From the NCBI GenBank assembly GCA_022072405.1, contig JAJVHX010000007.1, positions 62,001 to 126,000 of the forward strand: 64,000 nucleotides of DNA. The letters run 5' to 3'. A program made the translations under genes and the position numbers. The DNA comes from Phycisphaerae bacterium. Lineage in GTDB: Bacteria; Planctomycetota; Phycisphaerae; UBA1845; CAIVHJ01. The stretch's first letter is position 1. Every line of letters begins with the position of its first letter. A model generated the notes under the pieces. The model was not told where the DNA came from and did not search any database. It was given only the letters and a program-made list of their open reading frames with translations. Shown here one piece after another: positions 23,448-25,317 of the stretch.

Positions 23448-23855
23448 ATGGCCAGGGAGAATTTGTTTCACTGTCAATTGATCACCCCCGACGCGGCGCT
23501 GGCCGATGAGCTGGTCAGCAGCGTGGTCGTCACCGCCCATGATGGCGAACTGGGCGTGCTGCGCGATCGGGCGCCGCTGCTCTGTCGGCTGGGTGTGGGC
23601 GGTCTGCGTATGCAGACCCCAACCGGCACGCGACAATTTTTTATTGACGGCGGCTTTATGCAGGTTTATTCCAACGAGCTGGTCATCCTGACACCCCAGG
23701 CTCGCCCCATCGATCAAATACCAGTTCAGGATACTCAGCGACAATTGAAAGAGTGGCAGGAAAAAACTGCTCACAGCCTGGCGGAGCAGGAAACCAAAGA
23801 TGTGGAAGTTCGCCGGCTGCGGGCCCAATTGCGACTGGCAGTGAAAAACAAATGA
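23448..23855 (+). CDS. atpC: F0F1 ATP synthase subunit epsilon
   Basis: 135 residues: N-terminal beta-sandwich (FHCQLITPDAALADELVSSV, GELGVLRDRAPLLCRLGVGG, IDGGFMQVYSNELVILTPQA) and a C-terminal helical hairpin (QLKEWQEKTAHSLAEQETKD) that in this family can inhibit ATP hydrolysis. The GGFMQV segment is the usual epsilon signature. Last gene of the ATP synthase operon. No terminator follows directly; the next clear terminator, near 24.11 kb, belongs to a separate putative small RNA but could also stop read-through from atpC. Confidence 0.95.
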   Translation: MARENLFHCQLITPDAALADELVSSVVVTAHDGELGVLRDRAPLLCRLGVGGLRMQTPTGTRQFFIDGGFMQVYSNELVILTPQARPIDQIPVQDTQRQLKEWQEKTAHSLAEQETKDVEVRRLRAQLRLAVKNK

Positions 23856-23951: not shown

Positions 23952-23986
23952 AGAGTGTTGACACTCTCTTAAAGGTCCGATAGAAT
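23952..23986 (+). promoter_or_regulatory. Near-consensus promoter with operator-like palindrome
   Basis: TTGACA at 23958-23963, exactly 17 bp spacer, TAGAAT at 23981-23986. A perfect palindrome AGAGTGT-TG-ACACTCT (23952-23967) covers the -35 box, as expected for a repressor site. No protein gene follows; the predicted transcript starts near 23993. Confidence 0.7.
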
Positions 23987-23992
23987 CGCTTG

Positions 23993-24145
23993 GCGTAAGA
24001 AAACAGTTCTTAACTGTAGTAAATAAAGAAACTTCTGTGGCCAATGCGCCGAATTAGTTTATAGCAAATAACCCACTCATCGGTTCCTCCCCCCGGGAAC
24101 CGATTTCCCCCAAGGCCCGCTCCACCCCGGCGGGCCTACTTTTTT
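23993..24145 (+). ncRNA. Putative small regulatory RNA, about 150 nt
   Basis: Inferred transcript from the promoter above to a strong intrinsic terminator. It has three predicted hairpins: ACAGTT-CTT-AACTGT (24003-24017), ATCGGTTCC-TCCCCCCG-GGAACCGAT (24079-24104) and the terminator AGGCCCGC-TCCACCCCG-GCGGGCCT (24113-24137). Hairpins 2 and 3 both display C-rich loops (UCCCCCC, UCCACCCC) able to pair with purine-rich Shine-Dalgarno sequences. About 60 nt of AU-rich unpaired sequence lies between hairpins 1 and 2. The longest ATG frame inside is six codons. It does not match tmRNA, RNase P RNA, SRP RNA or a 6S-like fold as far as I can tell by eye. A leader of an unannotated gene is unlikely because the terminator ends it. 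Confidence 0.55.
24113..24145 (+). terminator. Rho-independent terminator of the small RNA
   Basis: 8-bp perfect GC-rich stem (AGGCCCGC/GCGGGCCT) with a 9-nt loop followed by ACTTTTTTG. It could also end transcription coming from atpC. The remaining sequence to 24438 (about 290 bp) shows no gene; a 60-codon frame there lacks protein features and overlaps the sigma gene end. Confidence 0.8.
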
Positions 24146-24438
24146 GTACTTAGTTTTTGCGGTTATCTACTCGCAATCAGCGGTCAGTTAATAATTGGCT
24201 GGCCTCATATTTTTGAGCCGTGTGAACCCTTATTATTCACCACGGTTGGGGAAGGATGGCTGGTCTGGCCGTCGAATAAAAGCGTGCGCGTCCTAACAAT
24301 TCTGCCAGGCGGAATAATAAATTATAGAACCGGTTACAAAGTTGAAAATGCAGGCATAACCCAGGCTAACGTCGGTGGCGCTTGGAATGATGAAACCGGT
24401 TGCAGTCTGTATTTGTGGTTGTTCTGGCGGGGGAACGA

Positions 24439-25317
24439 TCAGCCGAGTTCTTCGGTGACCAGTTGATTCAGTCGGCGGAGGGCTTCGTTTTCGATCTGGC
24501 GGACGCGCTCACGGGTTAATCCTACCCGCTCGCCGATATCCTTGAGCGTCATCGGTTCGGACTCGCCCAGGCCGAACCGCATCCGCAGAATTTTCGCTTC
24601 GCGTTCATCGATCTGCTCGAGCAACCGGCGGAGCAGTTTGCCTTCCGCCTCGGTAAACATCGCATCTTCCGGACGTGGGCTTTTGGTGTCGGCCAGCATC
24701 TCTGTCAGCGGCAGCCCATTCTCGTCATCGCCTGATTGCGTCGGGGAGCTGAAGGCTTTCACCGCCCGTTTGATGATCCGCACCTTGCGTTCGGGCAGTT
24801 CCATCTCCGCAGCCAGCTCCTTGATATCCGGAGCGCGGCCTTCACGTTCCATGAAACTTTCGTTGGCCTGTTTGAAGCGGGCGATCATATCCACCATATA
24901 AGCAGGGATGTGGATCGGCTGGACCGAGTTGATCAACGCCCGTTTAATGGCTTGTTTGATCCACCAGGAAGCATAGGTGCTGAAACGCGTGCCGGCGTCG
25001 GGGTCAAAACCTTCCACCGCCCGCAGTAAGCCCAGGTTGCCCTCTTCGATCAGGTCCGATAAAGACATGCCGCGATTGGTATAATTTTTGGCGATGTTCA
25101 CTACCAGCCGCAAGTTGGAGCGGACCATCCGGTCACGGGCCTGCTGTGCTGAGGCTTCCGCCGTTTCCTTTTCCAACAACGTGGCTTCGCCCGTGTCAAA
25201 CATATCATCAATGTATAATGAATGCTGGATAATCTGGGCCAGCTCCTTCTCCTCATCCGCATTGAGGAGCGGTGCTTCGTTGATCTGCTTGAGATAAAGT
25301 TGCAGTCCCGATTCCAC
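24439..25317 (-). CDS. Sigma-70 family factor (RpoD/RpoS-like, short form)
   Basis: 292 residues with regions 1.2 to 4.2 of a primary-type sigma factor and no region 1.1. Region 1.2: LQLYLKQINEAPLLNADEEK. Region 2: RMVRSNLRLVVNIAKNYTNR, SLSDLIEEGNLGLLRAVEGF, DPDAGTRFSTYASWWIKQAI. Region 3: IHIPAYMVDMIARFKQ. Region 4.2: LKDIGERVGLTRERVRQIEN. The length fits group 2 (RpoS/SigB-like) factors or the compact primary sigma of some phyla. The recognised promoter should be close to TTGACA/TATAAT. It lies 161 bp downstream of rpsA on the same strand. Whether it is the main sigma factor cannot be told without the rest of the genome. Confidence 0.93.
   Translation of the reverse strand: MESGLQLYLKQINEAPLLNADEEKELAQIIQHSLYIDDMFDTGEATLLEKETAEASAQQARDRMVRSNLRLVVNIAKNYTNRGMSLSDLIEEGNLGLLRAVEGFDPDAGTRFSTYASWWIKQAIKRALINSVQPIHIPAYMVDMIARFKQANESFMEREGRAPDIKELAAEMELPERKVRIIKRAVKAFSSPTQSGDDENGLPLTEMLADTKSPRPEDAMFTEAEGKLLRRLLEQIDEREAKILRMRFGLGESEPMTLKDIGERVGLTRERVRQIENEALRRLNQLVTEELG

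Follow-up and report, generated by a model that had tools for sequence, protein, structure and literature searches.

B11, a 6C sRNA of Mycobacterium marinum, acts post-transcriptionally, and the C-rich loop of its terminator hairpin is its seed region (PMC12395582). In Xanthomonas, sX13 acts through C-rich loops on mRNAs that carry G-rich motifs close to their start codons, which it represses independently of Hfq (PMC3771888). Here we describe a predicted RNA from a 64-kb window (the whole stretch of DNA that was analysed, 64,000 nucleotides) of a planctomycete genome whose assembly comprises 3.57 Mb in 28 contigs. The best reading of the data is that it represents a new family, absent from Rfam, among the already known C-rich-loop sRNAs. 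Like 6C RNA (RF01066), it has a pair of hairpins whose loops are C runs, the final hairpin being the terminator, and it belongs to a high-GC host without Hfq and ProQ; unlike 6C, it has the loop 2 sequence CACCCC and an extra conserved C-rich tail and linker, and it has been found only in Planctomycetota. As in sX13 (RF02232), stable stems present C-rich loops, which in sX13 pair with G-rich motifs, but sX13 has three hairpins in 115 nt and shows no sequence relationship to the RNA described here (11.9 bits, cut-off 50).

To our knowledge, hardly any base-pairing sRNA with a known function has been described in Planctomycetota. In an Rfam survey of 2022, the PVC group as a whole was credited with 8 sRNA families (PMC9029176). 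In a phylum where base-pairing sRNAs are little described, the new family comes with a precisely defined structure and set of copies, with promoters, and with exposed candidate seeds. It makes two questions testable: whether pairing between C loops and G runs is a repeatedly evolved form of chaperone-free sRNA control, and whether sibling copies that arose by duplication and differ in promoter share out the work.

Promoter and Genomic Position of the Predicted sRNA Gene

The predicted sRNA gene sits between atpC (23448-23855, plus strand) and a convergent gene for a sigma-70-type factor (24439-25317, minus strand) in which regions 1.2, 2, 3 and 4 are present. The features of the locus are collected in Table 1. 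The near-perfect promoter described in the first-pass annotation was found exactly where it had been placed, and it is one of only two sequences on both strands of the window that match the sigma-70 pattern at this level. TTGACA and the -10 region are also kept at the orthologous loci of the two closest relatives, as TTGACA-17-TAGAAT in one (G001) and TTGACA-17-TAGGAT in the other (G002).

Table 1. Features of the predicted sRNA locus (positions in the window)
Feature	Position	Strand	Remarks
Sigma-70-type promoter TTGACA-17-TAGAAT	23958..23986	+	11/12 match; TTGACA 23958-23963, 17-nt spacer, TAGAAT 23981-23986; predicted transcription start ~23993
Palindrome AGAGTGT-TG-ACACTCT (perfect 7-2-7), overlapping the -35 box	23952..23967	.	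Not conserved; function doubtful
5' leader of the predicted transcript; includes a small hairpin (24003-24017)	23993..24069	+	Sequence not conserved
Conserved core: exposed C-rich 5' tail AACCCACUC	24070..24078	+	0.91-0.99 unpaired
Hairpin 1, stem AUCGGUUCCU/GGGAACCGAU, loop CCCCCC (closing U-G)	24079..24104	+	Fold; covariation of all ten pairs
Exposed linker UUCCCCCA	24105..24112	+	C-run conservation; ensemble unpairedness
Hairpin 2/terminator stem, loop CCACCCC	24113..24137	+	Terminator scan; fold; covariation of seven of nine pairs
U-tract of the intrinsic terminator (ACTTTTTTGT)	24138..24147	+	Terminator scan

The palindrome over the -35 box had been taken to imply control by a dimeric repressor. 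The palindrome itself is exact, but the repressor is unsupported: neither of the two closest relatives has the palindrome at its orthologous promoter, despite the retained TTGACA and -10 region, and the GAGTG-N4-CACTC form has only 4 occurrences in the genome. Because comparable repeats (arm of 7, spacer of 0-8) number 75 in the window, the palindrome alone is weak evidence. Its non-conservation and insufficient rarity thus ruled it out as support for a repressor.

A shared promoter motif, GGTCCGATA, was also considered and rejected, since the sampled portion of the source genome has just five copies, too few for a motif. Four genomes from a different family within the order (L018, L019, L020 and L025, at ~1501) carry a near-identical copy of the window promoter's -10 region (AGGTCCGATAGAATCGCTTGG) ahead of a conserved gene with the protein start MYCSHFGLHRPPFNNTPDP. 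On the minus strand, a promoter-like sequence at 24321-24348, TTTTCA-16-TATAAT (10/12), is aimed at the sRNA from the opposite side; it could give rise to an antisense transcript or could be a chance match.

Structure of the Predicted RNA

The whole predicted RNA measures ~150 nt, of which the conserved core (24070-24145) makes up ~76 nt. The twin hairpins with C-rich loops noticed previously are both in place, with the loops CCCCCC and CCACCCC. Besides the two loops, an exposed C-rich 5' tail, CCCACUC, and the linker UUCCCCCAA flank the hairpins, and both are also conserved. The whole transcript (155 nt) folds with an energy of -46.5 kcal/mol compared with -32.4 kcal/mol in shuffles (z = -4.04), and for the two hairpins by themselves z is -4.66; among the 200 dinucleotide shuffles of the fold test, none was as good as the native sequence. 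In the ensemble, the C runs of the window RNA are 0.96-1.0 unpaired.

A terminator scan recovered hairpin 2 together with its T-run, and the longest reading frame inside the transcript has 6 codons, in agreement with the earlier description of a strong terminator and no reading frame. A coding sequence was rejected on account of this short frame and of the distance between the start of the core and hairpin 2, which falls into all three frames among the homologues. The RNA thus combines stable hairpins, conserved C-run loops and an intrinsic terminator, the structural features of C-rich-loop sRNAs.

The Family Is Found in Two Families of One Order

Homologues were collected by BLAST and by searches with a covariance model built from 47 copies. 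When 60 related genomes were searched by BLAST, the two hairpins had strong matches in both other members of the source family and in many members of one sister family within the order. The core is present in all 3 genomes of the source family and in 48 of 51 genomes of the sister family (29 of the 30 of good quality), with 1-3 copies per genome: the source genome has one, and many sister-family genomes have two or three. Among 397 genomes sampled across the class, strong covariance matches (E < 1e-12) occurred only in the source family and the sister family. In a phylum-wide sample of 392 genomes, the source genome alone matched at E values up to 1e-6, and none of the 391 others did. The covariance search in Planctomycetota that had been suggested as a check, together with BLAST, returned a conserved core in these two families.

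A scan for the hairpin 2 pattern in one genome per species (84,980 species) produced 46 matches, 43 of which are titled Planctomycetota or Phycisphaerae; the other three, two of them titled simply 'bacterium' and one Alphaproteobacteria, are assigned to the sister family (G009, G383). One public record, JANQQE010000004.1 (L057), titled Alphaproteobacteria bacterium IP29b_bin.190, carries the planctomycete RNA, and its title is probably wrong. A phage origin was rejected after a search of 2.9 million viral contigs gave 0 matches.

Both Hairpins Covary while the C Runs Are Kept

In an alignment of 81 homologues, 97.1% of pair cells are standard pairs, and 17 of the 19 pairs change on both sides, G-U wobble included (all ten in hairpin 1 and seven of nine in hairpin 2). 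Compensatory cells number 183, compared with 41.8 in shuffles, and structures slid by 1-3 columns score far worse than the true structure. This alignment is fitted to the covariance model; hence, a MAFFT alignment was counted as well, and in it helix 1 has both-side changes at 9 of its 10 pairs. The stem of hairpin 2 is fixed by the search pattern in most sequences of the MAFFT set, and its invariance there is no evidence. The frequent G-U pairs argue for selection on RNA rather than on DNA pairing.

The stems vary while the loops and the linker stay C-rich. Loop 1 keeps at least CCCC in 71 of 71 close homologues, the linker keeps CCC in 70 of 71, and loop 2 keeps ACCCC in 67 of 71. In the four most divergent sister-family copies (L172, L173, L174 and L177), the loop of hairpin 2 is of the GAGCUUUC or CUUCGG type and lacks a C run, and the C run of hairpin 1 is retained.

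Copies Have Promoter-Like Sequences Upstream and Varied Neighbours

We examined the sequences upstream of the copies. TTGACA lies within ~150 nt upstream of 16 of 69 copies compared with 2.5% of control stretches, and a promoter score of at least 9.5 is reached upstream of 40% of copies compared with 4.5% of controls. One group of copies resembles the window copy in having a TTGACA promoter and a leader of ~60-90 nt. Many copies without TTGACA carry a promoter-like block, CTTGC...CCGATAT...GAGA(T/A), that ends just 5' of the core (seen in L111, L112, L116, L117, L119, L122, L124, L129 and L130) and from which an RNA of ~80 nt is predicted. The distinct promoter blocks suggest that the sibling copies are under different control.

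The position of the window copy raises the question of whether the element is mainly the terminator or 3' UTR of the atp operon, with the RNA a by-product of atp mRNA processing. It lies ~215 nt behind atpC, no other terminator is reported between them, and it adjoins atpC in all three source-family genomes and in one sister-family genome. We nevertheless regard this explanation as very unlikely. Two hairpins with conserved C loops and a linker are unnecessary for termination; the gene has its own 11/12 promoter, kept in two relatives; the opposite strand has no U-tract, so the terminator is not bidirectional; and most homologues are found beside unrelated genes, among them those for an ECF-type sigma factor and for HesB/IscA-like, arginine-deiminase-like, LptD-like or HlyD-like proteins (names assigned by inspecting the translated sequences rather than by searching protein families).

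The genes downstream of the copies are often convergent. Because the flanking genes vary and the downstream genes are so often convergent, a conserved leader is excluded and a mere atp terminator is weakened as an explanation. In the window, too, a leader of the next gene was rejected, as the downstream gene is convergent. The several copies per sister-family genome might also be expected of a dispersed DNA repeat, or of a leader or attenuator that acts in cis on a neighbouring gene; however, the copies differ in their neighbours and end in a terminator-like hairpin and a T-run, and covariation that tolerates G-U pairs is an RNA signature, which leaves such explanations with hardly any credibility.

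The independent small RNA proposed in the first-pass annotation is thus strongly supported by conservation, covariation, the promoters upstream of the copies and the varied gene neighbours, and the locus is almost certainly a real structured RNA gene. Its transcription is predicted from the promoter and terminator, and, judged by sequence, the RNA is trans-encoded with a promoter of its own, as C-rich-loop sRNAs are.

Comparison with Known sRNA Families

A match to a known Rfam family had been named beforehand as an argument against a novel sRNA, and a search with Rfam 15 gave 0 matches at the gathering threshold in the window. Below threshold, the best models for the window RNA were 6C and ar14, followed at lower scores by sX13 and mmgR, and the best models for the homologues included Scr3202 and Betaproteobacteria toxic sRNA; all of these scores, for the window RNA and homologues, range from 12 to 36 bits against cut-offs of 41-59. 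Scr3202 (RF02833), ar14 (RF02344) and Betaproteobacteria toxic sRNA (RF02278) have a like layout of a hairpin followed by a terminator, but they come from other phyla and reach only 35.6, 26.2 and 30.5 bits (with some homologues) compared with gathering scores of 52, 58.8 and 50, respectively. Because several unrelated families score alike, convergence on a single layout seems more likely than membership.

We also considered whether the RNA is a true member of the actinobacterial 6C family, acquired by or shared with Planctomycetota. The two-hairpin C-loop layout is the same, and of the Rfam models below threshold, 6C ranks in the top two for this part of the window. However, the window RNA scores 28.1 bits (E 0.048) and the best homologue 31.6 bits, compared with a gathering score of 47, and Scr3202 and Betaproteobacteria toxic sRNA score similarly, as convergence predicts. 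6C RNAs have two loops of about six C; loop 1 here is CCCCCC, and loop 2, CCACCCC, shows C-A-CCCC and not six C. Occurrence in Actinobacteria, which is typical of 6C, was not seen in the pattern scan of 84,980 species. Membership in the 6C family is therefore highly improbable.

Proposed Mode of Action and Search for Targets

The best explanation of the locus, and in our judgement quite a likely one, is a stand-alone C-rich-loop sRNA that pairs with G-rich ribosome-binding sites without Hfq or ProQ. A housekeeping-type promoter would transcribe an RNA of ~150 nt, which its own intrinsic terminator would end. The functional part would be the ~76-nt core, made up of the C-rich tail, the C-loop hairpin, the C-rich linker and the C-loop terminator hairpin. 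Its four rigidly exposed C runs would most probably serve as short seeds for G-rich stretches at or near the ribosome-binding sites of several mRNAs, and pairing would lower the translation of these putative targets, needing neither Hfq nor ProQ. Pairing as the mechanism is probable; the partner mRNAs, their repression and their identity are put forward here as predictions.

Hfq was found in 0 of 31 genomes (the source genome and 30 relatives) and ProQ in 0 of 15 genomes, with positive controls detected in both searches. The RNA, if it acts at all, must thus manage without both proteins. The target search covered 464 kb of the source genome, with 340 genes predicted by a home-made gene caller. 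GGGG occurs at positions -20 to -4 of 27 of the 340 genes compared with 10 of 340 in a control stretch at -40 to -24, indicating that G-rich sites occur where such an RNA could act.

The target prediction suggested as a check on loop pairing gave no excess over reversed motifs: duplex energies of -10 kcal/mol or lower were obtained for 59 of the 340 genes with the true motifs versus 81 with the reversed motifs. Nor were the best sites kept in relatives. The best candidate was a Fur-family gene (L210:3783-3813; G000 contig 5, 203783) with the sequence CCGGGGTGGA, in which a 10-nt perfect match, CCGGGGUGGA, located ~20-30 nt before the start, complements loop 2 and its edge; it was rejected because the site is missing before the orthologues in relatives. 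The other best candidates were two adjacent type II secretion F-domain genes; the second of the two was tested, and its G run is absent in most relatives, so this target was rejected as well.

The exposed C runs might instead form a sponge or ligand for a C-preferring RNA-binding protein (Rho, cold-shock or KH), with the RNA titrating or guiding that protein. Such a role would fit the fourfold, repeated display of similar C motifs within a short RNA, as well as mRNA sites that are neither enriched nor conserved. On the other hand, hairpin-displayed loops of 4-7 C look like those of known base-pairing sRNAs, and the two loops keep distinct letters (CCCCC versus CACCCC) that a pure protein motif would not need, and we consider a protein sponge unlikely. 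Of the pairing of C-rich loops with Shine-Dalgarno sequences, as first proposed, the part that stands is its plausibility: the kept C runs, the absence of Hfq and ProQ, and the similar RNAs elsewhere make it the best mechanism. The pairing itself found no support in the target search, since reversed motifs score at least as well and the best candidate sites are unconserved.

Similar RNAs in Other Families of the Class

We offer tentatively the possibility that Phycisphaerae have a class-wide set of sibling C-rich-loop sRNAs. It would comprise the present family, which occurs in two taxonomic families and often in at least two copies per genome, and a look-alike with a promoter of its own in a third taxonomic family. 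Such a set would be the main chaperone-free post-transcriptional network of the phylum and would have arisen independently of 6C and sX13. Weaker covariance matches were found in other families of the class, and some of these resemble the same design. The look-alike is a second twin-C-loop sRNA candidate, present in three genomes of one genus of the third family (L238, L239 and L240, at ~1400-1620). The candidate in L238 has a promoter of its own, TTGACA-17-TATAGT. Hairpin 1 of this RNA has a C loop and a stem whose changes between the three genomes are compensated; the RNA also has a C-rich linker, and its terminator hairpin carries the loop UCUCCCCC.
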